From NCBI GenBank assembly GCA_016784105.1, contig JADHVG010000011.1:1-32003 (forward strand): a stretch of DNA of 32,003 bases, in the 5' to 3' direction. The notes beneath the pieces were generated by a model that made no database searches, was not told where the DNA came from, and worked only from the letters and a program-made list of their open reading frames with translations. Positions 16,851-25,103 of the stretch are shown here, in pieces; position 1 is the first letter of the stretch, and the number at the start of each line of letters is the position of its first letter. The position numbers were made by a program, and so were the translations under genes. This DNA is from Candidatus Woesearchaeota archaeon. GTDB lineage: Archaea; Nanobdellota; Nanobdellia; Woesearchaeales; GW2011-AR4.

Positions 16851-17753
16851 ATGTTAAAAACAAGTATATGCGGTGTTAAACTAAAAAATCCCACTGTTCT
16901 CGCTTCTGGAATTCTTGGAGTAACTAAGCCCTCATTAGATCGTATGGGTAGGGAAGGTGCTGGTGCCGTTACCATGAAATCTCTGTGTCATGAAGAACGT
17001 TCTGGGAATAACAACCCTACCATGTTTAATGAAGGAGAAGTTTTTCTTAACGCAGTTGGTCTTCCGGGACAAGGCATGGATAGTGCATTAAAAGATTTTA
17101 AGAGATTGGATGATCTAAGTGTTCCAGTTATTGGCAGCATTTATGGATATACTCTAAAACAATTTGGTCAGGTGACAAAAAAAATTGCTTCCTTGAACCC
17201 TGCAATGATTGAAGTGAACATTTCTTGCCCAAACATACATTATGGGGAAAATTATGATAATTCTCCTAGTCTAGCAGCTAAAGTTACTAAGATATGTAAA
17301 AAAAATGCTGGGAAAATTCCAGTATCGATAAAATTAAGCCCTAATGTTTATGACATCAAAGTTATGGCTAAAGCCGTTGAGAAGGCTGGTGCAGATGCAA
17401 TAACTGCTATCAACACCTTAACCGGAATGTCTATTGATGCAGACACTAGGAAACCTATCCTGAAGGCAAAGACTGGGGGGATTTCCGGACCTGCACTAAA
17501 ACCAGTAGCCATCAAGTGCGTTTATGAAATTTATAAAACGGTAAAGATTCCAATAATCGGTACTGGAGGCATAACAACCGGAAAAGATGCCATAGAAATG
17601 GTTATGGCCGGAGCAACCTTAGTTGGAGTGGGAACTGCTTGCTACTATAGAGGCCCCAGTGTCTTCAAAAAAATATGCAAAGAAATGGAAACGTGGATGA
17701 AAAAAAATAAGATCAAGAATTTGAGGGAAATAAGAGGTATTGCACACAAATGA
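16851..17753 (+). CDS. pyrD: dihydroorotate dehydrogenase, class 1B catalytic subunit
   Basis: FMN enzyme that oxidises dihydroorotate to orotate. 300 residues forming a TIM barrel. The catalytic base is Cys126 in EVNISCPNIHYG, as in class 1 enzymes and unlike the Ser of class 2. TAINTLTGMSID and the FMN-phosphate loops IIGTGGITTGKDA and GATLVGVGTA are present. A cognate PyrK follows with a 4-nt overlap, which makes this the NAD-dependent 1B form. It has no N-terminal membrane helix, so it is cytoplasmic. Confidence 0.95.
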   Translation: MLKTSICGVKLKNPTVLASGILGVTKPSLDRMGREGAGAVTMKSLCHEERSGNNNPTMFNEGEVFLNAVGLPGQGMDSALKDFKRLDDLSVPVIGSIYGYTLKQFGQVTKKIASLNPAMIEVNISCPNIHYGENYDNSPSLAAKVTKICKKNAGKIPVSIKLSPNVYDIKVMAKAVEKAGADAITAINTLTGMSIDADTRKPILKAKTGGISGPALKPVAIKCVYEIYKTVKIPIIGTGGITTGKDAIEMVMAGATLVGVGTACYYRGPSVFKKICKEMETWMKKNKIKNLREIRGIAHK

Positions 17754-18550
17754 ATTGTATAAATAAAAATGCTCCTAGGATATTAAAAATAAGCAAGATA
17801 GTGAATGAAGGTTTAGGACAAAAATCTATTTTCTTCAATGAAACTATAGACTCAAAACCCGGTCAGTTCATCATGGTATATCTTCCAGGTGTAGATGAGA
17901 AACCGATGGCCATATCCTATAAAACAAGAAAAGAGTTTGCTTTCACATCTCAGGCTGTTGGTAAGTTTACAAAGGCAATAGAAAAATTAAAACCAGGAGA
18001 TAAACTAGGAATCAGGGGTCCGTACGGCAAAGGATTTTCTTTAAAGAAAAATGCTTGCGTTATAGCAGGAGGAGTCGGCATGTCTTCTGTCTCTACACTC
18101 ATCGATAAACTAAAAAATCCTCTTATAATCTATGGTGCACGTTCCAAAAATCATCTTATCTATCTAAAAAGATACAAAAAAAATAATTTGGAAATAGCAA
18201 CTGATGATGGAAGTTCTGGTTTTAAAGGGTTTAATACTGTTCTTCTGGAAAAGGCTTTGAAAGAAAAAAAAATAAAGCAGGTGTATACGTGCGGTCCAGA
18301 AGTGATGATGGAAAAAGTTTTCAACATCTGCAAAAAAAATAAAGTTGAATGTGAAGCTTCTTTGGAAAGGTACATGTCTTGTGGTTTTGGTGTTTGTGGT
18401 AAGTGCATGGTTGATGATCAAATAGTTTGTGTTGATGGTCCGGTGTTTACCTCCAAACAACTTTTGAAGATGCCAGAGTTTGGCAACAGTGCAAGACTAA
18501 AAAGCGGAAGAAAGGTTTCATTGCAAGAATATCATGCTACACCAACCTAA
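17750..18550 (+). CDS. pyrK: dihydroorotate dehydrogenase electron transfer subunit
   Basis: Iron-sulfur flavoprotein that passes electrons from PyrD to NAD. 266 residues: an FAD-binding barrel (KPGQFIMVYLPG, then KPMAISYKT), an NAD-binding domain (ACVIAGGVGMSS, YTCGPEVMMEKV) and a C-terminal [2Fe-2S] site with Cys211, Cys216, Cys219 and Cys227 (CGFGVCGKC...C). The order and spacing match PyrK. The ATG overlaps the pyrD stop, and GAGGT sits about 11 nt before it as a plausible Shine-Dalgarno sequence. Confidence 0.95.
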   Translation: MNCINKNAPRILKISKIVNEGLGQKSIFFNETIDSKPGQFIMVYLPGVDEKPMAISYKTRKEFAFTSQAVGKFTKAIEKLKPGDKLGIRGPYGKGFSLKKNACVIAGGVGMSSVSTLIDKLKNPLIIYGARSKNHLIYLKRYKKNNLEIATDDGSSGFKGFNTVLLEKALKEKKIKQVYTCGPEVMMEKVFNICKKNKVECEASLERYMSCGFGVCGKCMVDDQIVCVDGPVFTSKQLLKMPEFGNSARLKSGRKVSLQEYHATPT

Positions 18551-18552
18551 AA

Positions 18553-19752
18553 ATGTCTTTGTTGATAAAAAACGGAAAAGTCTACCTAGAAGGTAATTTA
18601 GTTAGTAAAAACATTTTTATTGAAAAAGACAAGATAACAAAAATAACTTCTTCCGAGGTAAAAGCTGATAAGGTTATAGATGCTTCTAACAAGATAATTA
18701 TTCCTGGGTTGATAGATCCTCACGTGCATTTCCGTGATCCAGGTCTTACCCATAAAGAAGATTTTCTGACAGGAAGCATGGCGGCAGCTGCTGGGGGTAT
18801 AACCACTATCCAGGACATGCCTAATACCCTCCCTCCCGTTAACAACTTACAAGTTCTTGATGAGAAAAGGAAAGCTGCAAGAAAAAGCGTTGTTAATTAT
18901 GGTTTGTACTTTGGGTGTGATGCTGACAACTTATCAGAAATAGAAAAAGCGTCTAATGTTCCCGCAGTAAAAGTTTACATGGATCACACCACTGGGAACC
19001 TGCTGTTGAATGACAATCAGGTTTTAGAAAAAATATTTACAAGCAACAAATTCATCGCAGTTCATGCAGAAAAAAAGAATGTAAAAAGGTGTTTAGACTT
19101 AATAGAAAAAGGAGATAATGGAATCTACTTTTGCCATATTAGCTCAAAACAGGAATTGGATGATACTCAGAGTAAATCTATCGAGAATAATGTTTATGTG
19201 GAAGTTTCTCCGCAACATCTTTTTTTGACAAAAGATGACTTAAACAATTTAGAAGCTTTTGGAGAAATGAAACCTTCCTTAAAAACAAAAAGTGATCAAA
19301 AAGCATTGTGGAAAGGTATTAAAGATGGAACTGTGGATACTATCGGAACAGATCATGCTCCTCACACTAAGGAAGAAAAACTTGCTATTAATTATCCTTT
19401 TGGGATTCCAGGTTGTGAAACCCTGCTCCCGTTACTTCTTAATGCAATGCATGAAAATAAGATAACATTGAATAAAATAATAGAGCTGTGCTCCGAAAAT
19501 CCTGCCAACATTTTCAAGATAAAAAATAAAGGGTTCATCAAAGAAGGTTACGATGCTGATCTTACCATAATAGATTTAGATTTAGAAAAAGAAGTTAAGA
19601 ATGAAGAATTGTTTACTAAATGTTCTTGGAGTCCTTTCAATTCCTGGAACCTGAAAGGATGGCCTATCATGACGATAGTTCTTGGAGAAATTATTTTTGA
19701 TAATGGAAAAATTAATAAAATAAGCGCAAGAGAAGTTGAGTATGGCAAATAA
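18553..19752 (+). CDS. pyrC: dihydroorotase, class I
   Basis: Cyclises carbamoyl aspartate to dihydroorotate. 399 residues of the amidohydrolase fold. Metal ligands: His57 and His59 in DPHVHFRDPG, Lys140 or Asp144 as bridging residue in VKVYMDHTTG, His171 (VHAE), His195 (FCHISS) and Asp267 in GTDHAPH. RDPGLTHKEDF binds substrate in the family. It is slightly shorter than the bacterial enzymes, but no motif is missing. It starts 2 nt after pyrK and runs into pyrE with an 11-nt overlap. Confidence 0.95.
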   Translation: MSLLIKNGKVYLEGNLVSKNIFIEKDKITKITSSEVKADKVIDASNKIIIPGLIDPHVHFRDPGLTHKEDFLTGSMAAAAGGITTIQDMPNTLPPVNNLQVLDEKRKAARKSVVNYGLYFGCDADNLSEIEKASNVPAVKVYMDHTTGNLLLNDNQVLEKIFTSNKFIAVHAEKKNVKRCLDLIEKGDNGIYFCHISSKQELDDTQSKSIENNVYVEVSPQHLFLTKDDLNNLEAFGEMKPSLKTKSDQKALWKGIKDGTVDTIGTDHAPHTKEEKLAINYPFGIPGCETLLPLLLNAMHENKITLNKIIELCSENPANIFKIKNKGFIKEGYDADLTIIDLDLEKEVKNEELFTKCSWSPFNSWNLKGWPIMTIVLGEIIFDNGKINKISAREVEYGK

Positions 19753-20368
19753 AGAAGACATTGCAAAGATATTGCTAGAGAACAAAGCAGTTACCTTAAA
19801 TCCTAAAGATCCTTTTACTTACACTTCCGGAATCAGAAGTCCTATCTACTGTGATAATCGCATCTTGATAGGGATTCTTGAAGAAAGGGAAAAAATAGTT
19901 GATAGTTATCTTGAAGTTCTAAAAGGTGTTGATTTTGATGTAGTTGCCGGAACTTCAACTGCAGGTATACCTTGGGCTGCCTGGATATCTGAGAGGCTCA
20001 ATAAACCAATGTGTTACATCAGAAGTGATAAAAAAGGTCACGGTACTGGCAAGCAAATAGAAGGTGCATCTGTTGAAGGCAAAAAAATTGTTATCATCGA
20101 GGATTTAATAAGTACTGGAAAAAGTAGTTTTGGTGCTGTTGAAGCAGCAAGGAACGCAAAAGCTCAAGTTCTTAGTGTGCTTGCAATTTTTACTTATGAA
20201 CTTGAAAAATCCAGAAAGATATTTGAGGAAGGAAACTGTAAAATTATTACTTTGACTGATTTTTCAACTTTAGTGAGGACTGCAAAGGAAATAAGTTACA
20301 TATCTGAAGAAGAATTAAAAATTGTTTTAGTATGGAATCAGAATCCAGAGGAATGGGAAACAAAATGA
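19742..20368 (+). CDS. pyrE: orotate phosphoribosyltransferase
   Basis: Transfers ribose phosphate from PRPP to orotate to form OMP. 208 residues. The PRPP-binding loop is VIIEDLISTGKSS (about 117-129), the catalytic flexible loop is IRSDKKGHGTGKQIEG (about 93-108), and FTYTSGIRSPIYCDNR is the conserved N-terminal element. The ATG at 19742 is preferred over an in-frame TTG two codons upstream. Overlaps with pyrC (11 nt) and pyrF (ATGA) show tight coupling. Confidence 0.94.
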   Translation: MANKEDIAKILLENKAVTLNPKDPFTYTSGIRSPIYCDNRILIGILEEREKIVDSYLEVLKGVDFDVVAGTSTAGIPWAAWISERLNKPMCYIRSDKKGHGTGKQIEGASVEGKKIVIIEDLISTGKSSFGAVEAARNAKAQVLSVLAIFTYELEKSRKIFEEGNCKIITLTDFSTLVRTAKEISYISEEELKIVLVWNQNPEEWETK

Positions 20369-21057
20369 TAATCAACAAAGAAAGGTCAATCATCCCCAGT
20401 TGTGATGTGGATACTTTAGAAAAGCTTTCTGAACTGGTTAAGGAAACTTGTAATGTTTCTGGAATCAGTGCTTACAAGATTGGTTTTGAGCTTTGCTTGA
20501 AATTTAGCATTCCAAAAGTTGTTGAAACAATCAGAGATCACACTAAACTTCCAATTATTTATGATCATCAAAAAGCAGCAACTGATATTCCGGAAATGGG
20601 GACTAATTTTGCTGCTGCTGTTAAAGGAGTTGATGCCGTTATTCTTTTCCCGGTTATGGGTCCTGAAACAGAAAAAGCTTGGATAAATGCTTGTAAGAAA
20701 GCAGGTCTAGGTGTCATTGTCGGTGGAGAAATGACACATCCTGGTTTCTCGGAAAAAGAAGGCGGATTTATCAGCGAAGAAGAATCATTAAAAATCTACG
20801 ATATCGCTTCCGATCTGGGAGTTGTTGAGTTTGTGGTTCCAGGCAACAAACCAGAACAGATTAAAAAGTATAGGGAATTTTTGGAAAATAAAGGAATCTC
20901 TCCTGTTTTCTATTCTCCAGGATTGATAACTCAAGGTGGAGACATAACTGAATCCGCTAAAGCTGCCGGAAAATGGCATGCTATTGTTGGCCGTGCTTTG
21001 TACAACTCCAAAGACATCAAAAAATCCGCTGAAGAAATGGTCAAAGCTTTGGAATAG
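20365..21057 (+). CDS. pyrF: orotidine 5'-phosphate decarboxylase, variant active site
   Basis: Final step to UMP, placed by operon context and the OMPDC barrel features: SCDVDT (Asp14), AYKIGFE (Lys38), the GGEMTHPGF region, PGNKP and the closing SPGLITQGG / VGRALYNS phosphate loops. The catalytic array is unusual. Classical enzymes have DxKxxD, whereas here it is YDHQKAATDIP, with Asp67, Lys70 and Asp74 spaced DxxKxxxD. I recall a similar pattern in some archaeal proteins. The ATG at 20365 overlaps the pyrE stop as ATGA. Upstream ATGs at 20332 and 20353 would need long overlaps. Confidence 0.85.
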   Translation: MIINKERSIIPSCDVDTLEKLSELVKETCNVSGISAYKIGFELCLKFSIPKVVETIRDHTKLPIIYDHQKAATDIPEMGTNFAAAVKGVDAVILFPVMGPETEKAWINACKKAGLGVIVGGEMTHPGFSEKEGGFISEEESLKIYDIASDLGVVEFVVPGNKPEQIKKYREFLENKGISPVFYSPGLITQGGDITESAKAAGKWHAIVGRALYNSKDIKKSAEEMVKALE

Positions 21058-21429: not shown

Positions 21430-21960
21430 ATGAAAGTTGCTGTTTGTGGTTCTGGGAATTCTATGGATGATTCTATAGCAAAAAAAACTTTTGATATTGG
21501 AAAAGAGATCGCAAAAAACAATCTTCTTCTCTTGACTGGTTCTTGTTTGGGTTATCCTCATGAAGCGGCAAAGGGCGCATTTTCTAATGGTGGGAAAGTG
21601 ATAGGTGTCAGCCCAGCAAAAAATCTGGAAAATCATAAAGAAATTTATAATTTCCCTGATGAGAACTTTACCCAGCTTTCTTTTACAGGTCTTGGGATTC
21701 CTGCAAGAAACTTTCCATTGGTTAGTGAAGCGGATGCAGTAATAATAGTTGGAGGCCAGACTGGAACATTAAATGAGTTCACAATAGCTCTAGCACAAAA
21801 CAAGCCTATTGGAATTTTAGAAGGTTCTGGAGGGATTACTAAAATGATTAAAGAAATTGCTGAGGTATGTAATAAAAATGGTGAAAAAGAGAATATTGTT
21901 TATTCTAAAGAGCCAAAAGAACTTGTAAATAAACTGATGGAAGTTGTTAATTCTAAATAA
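21430..21960 (+). CDS. SLOG/LOG-type Rossmann protein (TIGR00725-like)
   Basis: 176 residues of the nucleotide-binding SLOG fold found in lysine-decarboxylase-like (LOG) phosphoribohydrolases and DprA relatives. It starts with MKVAVCGSGN, then LLTGSCLGYPHEAAKGAF (helix after the GxxxG loop), LGIPARNFPLVSEADAVIIVGG and QTGTLNEF. The last two correspond to the 'PGGxGTxxE' motif in a changed form (VGGQTGTLNE). Family members cleave nucleotide 5'-monophosphates or sense nucleotides. A nucleotide-related role beside a pyrimidine operon is plausible but unproven. Confidence 0.78.
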   Translation: MKVAVCGSGNSMDDSIAKKTFDIGKEIAKNNLLLLTGSCLGYPHEAAKGAFSNGGKVIGVSPAKNLENHKEIYNFPDENFTQLSFTGLGIPARNFPLVSEADAVIIVGGQTGTLNEFTIALAQNKPIGILEGSGGITKMIKEIAEVCNKNGEKENIVYSKEPKELVNKLMEVVNSK

Positions 21961-21999
21961 TTGTCATGTTTTTTAAATAATCCTTGTTTTCTTTTGATT

Positions 22000-23154
22000 A
22001 TGTCAGAAATATATGAACCTGTAGAAGACAGCAAATTGCTAGAAAAGTTTGTAAGAGAACATTCTTCTGGTTCAGTGCTGGAAATTGGAACTGGTTCCGG
22101 AATACAAGCAATAGCTGCTGCAAAAAACAAAAAAGTTAATTCTGTTCTAGCTGTGGACATTCAAAAAAAAGTTATTGATGATTGTAAGAATTCTATAAAA
22201 GATAAAAAAATAAAATTTCTTGTTTCTGATTTATTCAAAAATGTTAAAGGAACCTTTGATACTATAATCTTTAATCCTCCTTATTTGCCTCAGGAATTAA
22301 AAGAAAGAGATGTTGCTTTAGAAGGTGGAAAACAAGGATATGAAGTTGTAGAAAAATTTCTTGATAATGCAAACAACTATCTAAAAAAAGAAGGGGTTAT
22401 TTTGTTGTTGTTCTCTTCCCTAACAAAAAAAAATAAAGTTGATGAATTTATCCAAAGAAATCTGTTAGAATTTGAATTATTGGGAAAACAACACATATTC
22501 TTTGAAGATTTATTTGTTTATAAGATAAAAAAAAGTGTTTTATTGAAAAAAATAGAAAGCAAGATAGAAAATATCGAGTATTTTTCTAAGGGCAAGAGAG
22601 GTTTCATCTATACTGGAACCCTCAAAAATGAAAAAGTAGCAATAAAAGTAAAGAATCCAAAAAGCGATGCTATTTCTAGAGTAGAAAATGAGATTAATTT
22701 TCTTAAAAAACTGAACAAAAAGAATATTGGACCTAAGATAATCTTTAATGGAGAAGAATTTTTTGCTTACAAATTTATCGAAGGCATTTCTTTTCAGGAA
22801 TTTTTAGGAAAAAACAATAAAAAATCTATCATTACGGTAATAAAAAAAATGTTGGAACAGCTTTTCATTCTTGATAAATTAAAAATCAACAAAGAAGAGA
22901 TGTCTCATCCACACAAGCACATCTTAATTGAAAAAAACAATCCAATACTTATTGATTTTGAACGTTCTAGATATACTATAAATCCCGCTAACATAACTCA
23001 GTTTTGTGATTATCTTACTTCCAAGAGCATAGCCGATACTTTAGATTCAAAAAACATTAAAATAAATAAAAAAACGCTCATAGATAAAGCGAAGAGTTAC
23101 AAAAGAGAGCAAAATAACAAACATTTTGAAGAAATCTTAAAAGAGATGAAATGA
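22000..23154 (+). CDS. HemK/Mtq2-like methyltransferase fused to a small protein kinase domain
   Basis: 384 residues. Residues 1-180 are a class I SAM methyltransferase: YEPVEDSKLL, the SAM loop EIGTGSG (28-34), the acidic VDIQ (52-55) and NPPYLP (92-97). NPPY is the signature of glutamine/adenine N-methyltransferases, and EPVEDS matches archaeal release-factor methyltransferases. Residues 185-345 look like a compact Ser/Thr kinase of the RIO/Bud32-like 'COG2112' type: GFIYTGTLKNEKVAIK (Lys216), ENEINFLKKL, a hinge YKFIEGISF, SHPHKHILI (302-310) and LIDFERSR (317-324). A TATA-like TTTTTTAAATAAT at 21969-21981 supports the ATG at 22000 over the TTG at 21961. Confidence 0.85.
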   Translation: MSEIYEPVEDSKLLEKFVREHSSGSVLEIGTGSGIQAIAAAKNKKVNSVLAVDIQKKVIDDCKNSIKDKKIKFLVSDLFKNVKGTFDTIIFNPPYLPQELKERDVALEGGKQGYEVVEKFLDNANNYLKKEGVILLLFSSLTKKNKVDEFIQRNLLEFELLGKQHIFFEDLFVYKIKKSVLLKKIESKIENIEYFSKGKRGFIYTGTLKNEKVAIKVKNPKSDAISRVENEINFLKKLNKKNIGPKIIFNGEEFFAYKFIEGISFQEFLGKNNKKSIITVIKKMLEQLFILDKLKINKEEMSHPHKHILIEKNNPILIDFERSRYTINPANITQFCDYLTSKSIADTLDSKNIKINKKTLIDKAKSYKREQNNKHFEEILKEMK

Positions 23155-23489
23155 GAAATAAACTAATACTGGGGGCTGTTGCAGCTGGAATTCTTGTATC
23201 CGGTCCAGTAGTTTTACCCTCCCCTTTAGAAAGGACATGTAATGAGTTTGAAGTATCAGAAGAAATTGATGGAACCTCATTTATTTATTCACAGAGTAAT
23301 TTTAAAAACATTTGCTTAACTTCGTTCAAAAGTGAAAACAAAACTGAAATGGTGTTGTTTTATGGCTGGTGGGGAAGCAATAATGGAGTCTTATTTGAAG
23401 TAATGTTTGGAGAATATTTTAATCTCGATTTTCATATAGTGGAGGCCTACCGTACCAGTGAAGGAGATATGAGTTATGGGTATTTATAA
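23151..23489 (+). CDS. small secreted protein of unknown function
   Basis: 112 residues. The N-terminus is a signal-peptide-like KLILGAVAAGILVSGPVVL. The remainder is polar with two Cys (30 and 54) that could form a disulfide, and an aromatic-rich VLFYGWWGSNNGVLFEVMFG. No domain recognised. It starts in the stop of the methyltransferase-kinase gene (ATGA) and overlaps the next gene, so it is part of the same transcript. Confidence 0.6.
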   Translation: MRNKLILGAVAAGILVSGPVVLPSPLERTCNEFEVSEEIDGTSFIYSQSNFKNICLTSFKSENKTEMVLFYGWWGSNNGVLFEVMFGEYFNLDFHIVEAYRTSEGDMSYGYL

Positions 23490-23817
23490 AATGACAACGA
23501 AATTTGAAGAAAAAATTTACCAAGTTTGTAAAAAAATCCCTAAAGGTAAAGTTTCAACGTACAAAGTGATAGCTGAAAAGCTAAATAGCAAGGCTTATCG
23601 TGCTGTCGGGAGTGCTATGAATAAGAACCCTTATTCTTTGTCAAAAATTGGAAGTTCTAAGAAGATGGTTCCTTGCCATAGAGTTGTTGCTTCTAATGGA
23701 CACTTGCATGGCTTTGCTCATGGATTAAAGAAAAAAGCTCAAATGCTAAGAAAAGAAGGTTTAGAAATAAAAAACAATAAAATAAAGAATTTTAAGGAAA
23801 AGTTGTGTAAATTTTAG
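23476..23817 (+). CDS. O6-alkylguanine-DNA alkyltransferase-type protein (single domain)
   Basis: 113 residues, the C-terminal catalytic domain of the MGMT/Ogt family without the usual N-terminal domain. IPKGKVSTYKVIAEKL (DNA-contacting Tyr), AYRAVGSAMNKNP (helix with the Arg finger) and PCHRVVASNGHLHGFAHG with the alkyl-accepting Cys are all present. The acceptor is Cys, so it is not the catalytically dead ATL form. Direct repair of O6-alkylguanine is expected. AGGAG lies 9 nt before this ATG. A second ATG at 23491, just after the upstream stop, is an alternative that gives 108 residues. Confidence 0.88.
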   Translation: MGIYKMTTKFEEKIYQVCKKIPKGKVSTYKVIAEKLNSKAYRAVGSAMNKNPYSLSKIGSSKKMVPCHRVVASNGHLHGFAHGLKKKAQMLRKEGLEIKNNKIKNFKEKLCKF

Positions 23818-23818
23818 T

Positions 23819-24745
23819 TTACTTCTTCTTTCCTTTTTTGGTTTTCTTCAGCTCTTTATCGAGCTTTAACTCATCAAGAAGTTCTTTGTATCTGTTTCTG
23901 ATGGTAACTTCCGTTACTCCAGCCACATCTGCAACTTCTCTTTGGGTTCTCTTTTCACCATGCAGTAAAGCTGATACGTATAAAGCAGCTGCAGCAATCC
24001 CTGTTGGACCTCTTCCACTAGTTAGTTCTGCTTTTTGGGCTTGTTCCAGTATCTCTATTGAGTTGCTTTGTGTTTCTGCACTCAATTTTAAGCTTGAAGA
24101 GAACCTTGCTATGTAATCAGCCGGATTACTTGGCAAGATTGTTATACCTAGTTCACGAGTTACAAACCTGTATGTTCTTCCAATTTCTTTTTTCTCGATT
24201 CCGGAAGCTTCTGATAGCTCATCTAAGGTTCTTGGAACGTCATGTCTTCTGCAAGCAGCATATAAGGCTCCTGCAACAACTGATTCCATGCTTCTTCCTC
24301 TCACTAGGCCTCTTTGTACAGCCATCGTGTAGATTCTTGCTGACTCTTCTTCTACAGATTTAGGTAATTTCAAGTATGAGGAAACTCTTTTCAGTTCAGC
24401 TAATGCTAATTTTAGGTTTCTTTCAATAGCAGTGGATATTCTATACTGCCATTTTCTTAATCTAAAGAATTTATTACGATCTTTTCCGCCTAGTTTGAAA
24501 AGGTCTGCTTTCTGTCCTACTTCGGTTCCGAGACCATGATCATACTGAGTGTATGTCATTGGAGCTCCAGCTCTTCTCTTACTTTCTCCTGTGTCAGAAT
24601 CAAATTCTCTCCATTCTTGAGAGAAATCAACCATTTTTTCTTCTATAACTAGACCGCAATCCTTACAAATAATCTCTCCTCTTTCTTTATTCCAATTAAG
24701 ATGTATTCCGCCACACTCCGGACATTTTTTGATTAAATCTGCCAT
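23819..24745 (-). CDS. tfb: transcription initiation factor B (TFB, TFIIB homologue)
   Basis: Recruits RNA polymerase to TBP-bound promoters and contacts the BRE. 308 residues. An N-terminal zinc ribbon (Cys8, Cys11, Cys27, Cys30; CPECGG...CKDCG) is followed by the B-reader/linker (QEWREFDSDTGESKRRAGAP, QYDHGLGTEVG) and two cyclin repeats (about 105-200 and 205-298). In the second repeat, TQREVADVAGVTEVTIRNRY is the HTH that reads the BRE. The tail is Lys-rich. Unlike most genes here, a GGGGGAA ribosome-binding-like sequence lies just upstream and the TATA-like element is about 55 nt away, which implies a leader. Confidence 0.96.
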   Translation of the reverse strand: MADLIKKCPECGGIHLNWNKERGEIICKDCGLVIEEKMVDFSQEWREFDSDTGESKRRAGAPMTYTQYDHGLGTEVGQKADLFKLGGKDRNKFFRLRKWQYRISTAIERNLKLALAELKRVSSYLKLPKSVEEESARIYTMAVQRGLVRGRSMESVVAGALYAACRRHDVPRTLDELSEASGIEKKEIGRTYRFVTRELGITILPSNPADYIARFSSSLKLSAETQSNSIEILEQAQKAELTSGRGPTGIAAAALYVSALLHGEKRTQREVADVAGVTEVTIRNRYKELLDELKLDKELKKTKKGKKK

Positions 24746-24932: not shown

Positions 24933-25103
24933 ATGACGATGGAAGACCCGATACCTAAAGATTTATTCAATATTCTTGCATGTCCCTTATGTTTGGCATC
25001 TTTACGCTACTCAAAAGACAAAAAACAACTTGTATGTGTAAAGTGCAGCGAAAAATACCTCATAAAACAGGGAGTTCCAATCCTGTTGCCTCCCAAAAAA
25101 TAG
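24933..25103 (+). CDS. Trm112-like zinc protein (56 aa)
   Basis: A 56-residue frame, ATG 24933 (or 24939) to TAG 25101-25103. LFNILACPLCLASLRY, then LVCVKCSEKYLIKQGVPILLP matches the Trm112/UPF0434 fold: two CxxC knuckles and the 'Y.i..GIP.LLP' ending. In eukaryotes and archaea Trm112 is the obligate activator of several methyltransferases, including the release-factor methyltransferase Mtq2 and tRNA methyltransferases. The HemK/Mtq2-like fusion gene lies about 1.8 kb upstream on the same strand, so a functional link is reasonable but not shown. Confidence 0.85.
   Translation: MTMEDPIPKDLFNILACPLCLASLRYSKDKKQLVCVKCSEKYLIKQGVPILLPPKK

Follow-up and report, generated by a model that had tools for sequence, protein, structure and literature searches.

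A single gene of Woesearchaeota joins an Mtq2-type methyltransferase to a kinase domain that most resembles the tRNA kinase ArkI

We describe an archaeal gene whose product, a single chain of 384 amino acids, combines an Mtq2/HemK2-type methyltransferase with a kinase-fold domain for which the likeliest identity, from sequence and structural models, is that of an ArkI-like RNA kinase (COG2112). Since ArkI acts on the 2′-OH of tRNA U47, the gene probably encodes a bifunctional translation-maintenance enzyme, with predicted activities in the methylation of the GGQ motif of aRF1 and in the 2′-phosphorylation of tRNA U47. Both enzymes are of known types, and it is their joining that appears to be undescribed: we found no paper on an Mtq2-ArkI fusion in the open-access literature, subscription literature being mostly beyond the search.

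An intact gene that recurs within one order

The gene occupies positions 22000 to 23154 of the forward strand of a stretch of 32,003 nucleotides (the window) from a Woesearchaeota genome of 1.19 Mb (71 contigs, 83% complete), in which the protein has no second match. The frame is stop-free and is open already from a TTG at 21961; homology to relatives starts only at the ATG at 22000, with the conserved N terminus M-x-x-[IV]-Y-x-P-x-E-D. A preliminary description of the window had read this frame as one chain carrying a methyltransferase and a kinase-like domain, and both domains are confirmed. The AlphaFold2 model of the full-length protein has two domains (mean pLDDT, 91.4; pTM, 0.83), and fold searches with it recovered both ArkI and HEMK2-TRMT112. 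The features of the locus are listed in Table 1.

Table 1. Features of the fusion gene and its surroundings (positions in the window)
Feature	Position	Strand	Evidence
Mtq2/HemK2-type class I SAM methyltransferase domain (residues 1-178)	22000..22533	+	TIGR00537, NF011529, PF05175, PDB sequence and fold
NPPYLP motif of release-factor glutamine methyltransferases (residues 92-97)	22273..22290	+	Invariance in 54 fused proteins
Short interdomain junction (residues 179-183)	22534..22548	+	Gap between the two HMM matches
Predicted ArkI-like RNA-kinase domain (residues 184-384; stop codon at 23152-23154)	22549..23151	+	PDB profile search, Foldseek
P-loop SKGKRG; K197/G198 = TkArkI K32/G33	22585..22602	+	Conservation and TkArkI mutants
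VAIK lysine K216 = TkArkI K51	22645..22647	+	Invariant, 47/47
Catalytic loop KEEMSHPHK (residues 298-306), HRD replaced; K306 = TkArkI K137	22891..22917	+	K298, E300, P304 and K306 invariant
Metal-binding DFE; D319 = TkArkI D149	22954..22962	+	DFE invariant, 47/47
ArkI subdomain IX N-x-T-Q-F; N331/T333 = TkArkI N160/T162	22990..23004	+	N331 46/47, T333 44/47
YKR motif (residues 367-369), proposed RNA-binding element of ArkI (TkArkI 200-202)	23098..23106	+	Y367 46/47, K368 44/47
112-aa ORF with hydrophobic N terminus, start on the stop codon of the fusion (ATGA overlap)	23151..23489	+	No family match
MGMT/alkyltransferase-like protein (PCHRV), downstream of the fusion	23476..23817	+	PF01035, E value 1.2e-26
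Transcription factor B (TFB), conserved neighbour	23819..24745	-	PF00382, E value 6.5e-46
Short Trm112-like zinc ribbon, weak candidate partner, about 1.8 kb downstream	24933..25103	+	PF03966, 38.7 bits

Could the fusion be an artefact? A sequencing or assembly frameshift that joined two genes, a possibility raised with the first reading, would be compatible with the presence of the two genes as adjacent but separate ORFs in some relatives. Yet among the best 80 loci of a single scan of GTDB contigs, which are essentially Woesearchaeota and Nanoarchaeota bins with a few odd titles, the methyltransferase and the kinase share one ORF in 67 independent loci and are adjacent genes in 9. We sampled 157 genomes of the phylum, 108 from the order of the window and 49 from other orders of the class. 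The single-ORF fusion is present in about 73 of the 108 (counted by hand among the matches listed) and in none of the 49, and the kinase stands alone in all 16 kinase loci fetched from these other orders. The same fusion, for which a survey had been suggested, is thus widespread in the order and absent from the genomes sampled outside it. The distance between the HMM matches of the two domains is nearly constant, at 5 to 12 residues and mostly 8 to 11 in 76 fused proteins. We set aside a 725-aa ORF of locus L195, whose frame runs across an N. Values of dN/dS between close pairs are low in the methyltransferase half (0.08 to 0.17) and in the kinase half (0.10 to 0.19), and hence both halves are maintained by purifying selection. 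Because the fusion recurs, with a near-constant junction and low dN/dS on both of its sides, and is modelled with high confidence as two domains, we excluded the frameshift, whose probability we consider negligible.

The methyltransferase half and its possible partner

Residues 1 to 178 exceed the cut-offs of two curated profiles, TIGR00537 (HemK2/MTQ2; 141.8 bits, cut-off 87) and NF011529 (174.3 bits, cut-off 162), and match the Pfam family PF05175 with an E value of 1.7e-15. The relatives found in the PDB, by sequence and by fold, are human N6AMT1/HEMK2 and the Mtq2 of E. cuniculi. This bears out the initial assignment to the release-factor-type SAM methyltransferases, made on the NPPYLP motif. 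The motif aligns with NPPYV of N6AMT1, and N92, P94, Y95, L96 and P97 are invariant among 54 fused proteins, in which Y-x-P-x-E-D, the SAM motif GTGSG (residues 30 to 34), D53, NPPYLP as a whole and GG-x-x-G are invariant or almost so. The source genome encodes, on contig C62, an aRF1 with the motif KTKAGGQSS, which is the expected substrate. Judged by its motifs, the Mtq2 half is predicted to transfer a methyl group from SAM to the glutamine of this GGQ. The protein thus has, like Mtq2/HemK2/N6AMT1 (TIGR00537), the Y-x-P-x-E-D, G-x-G-S-G, NPPY and GG-x-x-G motifs and an aRF1 GGQ in the same genome, but it differs from them in sharing its chain with a kinase and in that its Trm112 partner is atypical here and undetected in most of the genomes that carry the fusion.

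Trm112 is the known activator of Mtq2, Trm11 and Trm9. The preliminary description had pointed to a Trm112-like protein downstream of the fusion, a claim that stands in part. Its product matches Trm112p of Pfam (PF03966; cut-off, 22 bits) and has the four cysteines of such a zinc ribbon, but remains below the archaeal Trm112 cut-off of NCBI (NF038101; 39.4 versus 77 bits). Its cysteines are spaced C-X2-C-X14-C-X2-C, and X14 falls outside the X19-36 of the published archaeal signature, [C/D]PX[C/D]X19-36CX2C (PMC5372719). The gene also adjoins that of TFB. With a subfamily profile, which a divergent Trm112 could escape, we found a small stand-alone Trm112-like gene in only 6 of 39 genomes with the fusion; 4 of 19 genomes of the order without the fusion had one, and none of the 7 from sister orders did. 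Matches to PF03966 near 24 bits in many genomes were discarded as Trm112 candidates, being the zinc ribbon of TFIIB. We do not therefore regard Trm112 as an established partner, given its patchy presence in fused genomes, the missed cut-off and the linkage to TFB, although the encoded protein may serve as the partner of Mtq2 in this genome.

The scarcity of Trm112 suggests another possible role for the kinase domain, that of stabilizing or activating the Mtq2 domain in lieu of Trm112. In its favour, the search for a small Trm112 gene gave no match in 33 of the 39 fused genomes, including two that are single contigs (G044 and G126). But unfused genomes of the order are without Trm112 about as often (15/19), and so are all 7 from sister orders, in which Mtq2 stands by itself. 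The absence of Trm112 does not, for this reason, track the fusion, and we consider such a substitution quite unlikely.

The kinase half resembles ArkI

The C-terminal half was assigned by sequence, fold and motifs; no Pfam family exceeded its cut-off in residues 181 to 384. The region in which a kinase fold was to be verified (residues 185 to 345) does have that fold, in a domain that extends over residues 184 to 384 and that AlphaFold2 modelled by itself with a mean pLDDT of 94.5. In a single-sequence search of the PDB the top ranks went to 8yv4/8yv5, named in the fold-comparison library as the G. acetivorans RNA kinase Ark1, and to TkArkI. With a profile of 50 relatives, Ark1 of G. acetivorans was matched at an E value of 1e-23 and TkArkI at 2e-15, the next match being at 9e-7. 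Foldseek searches with the model of the kinase ranked TkArkI first (E value, 2e-11; TM scores, 0.79/0.75), followed by 8yv4/8yv5, and the next family was CK2 (5.5e-7). We found no paper on the Ark1 structure in the open-access literature, and no biochemical characterization of any Woesearchaeota homologue in the literature.

ArkI phosphorylates the 2′-OH of U47 in tRNA, and alanine mutants of TkArkI have pinpointed the residues relevant for activity: D149A abolishes it, K32A, G33A and K201A cripple the enzyme, and H130 and Q132 are both important (PMC9095486). Most activity-lowering positions have counterparts in the window protein, namely K32, G33, K51, E65 (E231 here, by alignment), K137, D149, N160, T162 and the YKR at 200 to 202. 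In the 47 sequences compared, G198 of the P-loop is invariant and R200 and G201 are nearly so. The VAIK lysine and the DFE of the IDFE metal-binding element, both noted at the outset, are also strictly kept (Table 1). The mismatch concerns H130 and Q132, which correspond to K298 and E300 here. TkArkI has HGQ where the window protein has the KEEM loop, and since Ark1 of G. acetivorans carries the same KEEM, HGQ appears, from these alignments, to mark a subtype of ArkI and not the whole family. Hence, the protein is like ArkI/Ark1 (COG2112, AQ578 family) in its fold, the K-G of the P-loop, VAIK, DFE, the lysine of the catalytic loop, N-x-T and YKR, and like Ark1 of G. acetivorans in its KEEM loop. 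It differs in being fused behind Mtq2, in the replacement of the HGQ of TkArkI by KEE, and in its occurrence in Woesearchaeota, in genomes without KptA.

The first reading had instead proposed a protein kinase that would phosphorylate aRF1, a ribosomal protein or itself, coupling termination to phosphorylation with a logic comparable to that of Kae1-Bud32. The domain does have a kinase fold, and weak matches to the Bud32 profile occur in some relatives (14 of 50 members; best E value, 1.7e-7). However, HRD is missing, with KEE in its place, and DFG is replaced by DFE. The ArkI structures rank ahead of CK2, PKR, RIO and PRPK by more than 3 orders of magnitude in E value, the ArkI-specific NxT and YKR are conserved, and searches of the window protein with Pfam, NCBI and Bud32 profiles gave no above-threshold match to RIO or Bud32, which had been named as a check. 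We rejected the protein kinase, RIO and Bud32 identities on these profiles, motifs and fold rankings, and consider phosphorylation of a protein target very unlikely. The suggestion of COG2112 made alongside was right. An RNA kinase, by homology, is the likeliest reading of this half because most of the residues required for ArkI activity are kept while the HRD and DFG of protein kinases are missing. This reading also removes a probable source of misannotation, as the ArkI-like domain should not be labelled a Ser/Thr protein kinase.

Predicted action on tRNA

If the kinase half acts as ArkI does, it would use ATP to phosphorylate class I tRNAs at the 2′-OH of U47, a nucleotide of the variable loop, and the resulting 2′-phosphate would stiffen the tRNA core. 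In the source genome, class I tRNAs whose variable loop has 5 nt (Lys, Thr, Arg, Val and Met) have U47. Such tRNAs fit the predicted substrate, although they do not discriminate, U47 being widespread among tRNAs in general. Many of the tRNA loci of this genome (L137 to L158) bear introns, and several were apparently mispredicted by ARAGORN.

KptA is the known eraser of Up47 and part of the described ArkI system, without strictly defining it. A KptA/Tpt1 homologue (PF01885) was found in 0 of 59 genomes, that of the window being 83% complete, whereas control genomes were positive. The reversible system as described is therefore not reproduced here. The fusion predicts internal 2′-phosphorylation of tRNA throughout an archaeal order known mostly from groundwater, sediment and marine samples. 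Since these genomes have no recognizable KptA, the mark may be permanent, and it may serve something besides heat tolerance. The points that count against a bifunctional methylase and tRNA kinase are thus the changes at H130 and Q132, the absence of KptA and the failure to detect Trm112 in most fused genomes.

Gene neighbourhood and the origin of the fusion

In many loci the usual order is the Mtq2-ArkI pair, then an MGMT-like gene and then TFB on the opposite strand. The 112-aa ORF of the window overlaps both the fusion gene and the MGMT gene; it matched no Pfam family, and no similar sequence was found in the related loci examined. Among unfused members of the order, the Mtq2 and ArkI genes are often in tandem, many of them -4 to +11 bases apart. 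The MGMT-type protein is also fused at the other junction: in four loci (L044, L046, L047 and L188) the C terminus of ArkI is joined to the PCHRV domain, with Mtq2 separate, and in two (L196, 529 aa, and L197, 505 aa; contigs G077:C39 and G063:C107) Mtq2, ArkI and MGMT share one frame. Proximity is therefore at least part of the reason for the fusion, and operon order favours joining at either junction.

The fused state is clustered on the trees of the kinase and of Mtq2 but forms no single clade on either, and well-supported branches force at least 4 changes of state on the former and at least 3 on the latter. We thus rejected a single origin as a simple reading; one gain followed by fissions may have occurred. 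Because the unfused genes are in tandem and the state changes several times on the trees, the steps likely went from separate to tandem to fused genes, with repeated gain or loss. The fusion would then have been born inside this order of Woesearchaeota, by the joining of neighbours in an Mtq2-ArkI-MGMT cluster.

Does the fusion couple the two activities? It could be an incidental product of operon order, joining two independent housekeeping enzymes without a mechanistic link, and we give this somewhat better than even chances. The nearly touching genes of unfused relatives, the ArkI-MGMT and triple fusions and the repeated changes of state all argue for it, whereas the wide distribution of the fused state, its clustering on the trees and the near-constant length of the junction argue against it. 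An incidental fusion would be compatible with a bifunctional enzyme. A physical coupling of the halves seems unlikely to us; in it, one chain would link the maturation of two A-site ligands, tRNA and its mimic aRF1, conceivably through a shared docking surface or through control of the Mtq2 half by the kinase half in the place of Trm112. The Kae1-Bud32 fusion of KEOPS is similar in that it, too, joins a small atypical kinase of archaea to a different enzyme related to translation, but the pairs are not homologous, the kinase here being ArkI-like and its partner Mtq2. The fusion offers an experimentally simple one-gene probe for a link between release-factor methylation and tRNA phosphorylation.

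Directly upstream of the fusion lies a SLOG/LDcluster4 (lysine-decarboxylase-like) gene (21430-21960, forward strand), which often adjoins the fusion in closer relatives. It is preceded by genes of pyrimidine biosynthesis (17750-21057, forward strand), among which a phosphoribosyltransferase and an OMP decarboxylase were assigned by Pfam, and a dihydroorotate dehydrogenase electron-transfer-like protein and a dihydroorotase were read from the sequence.
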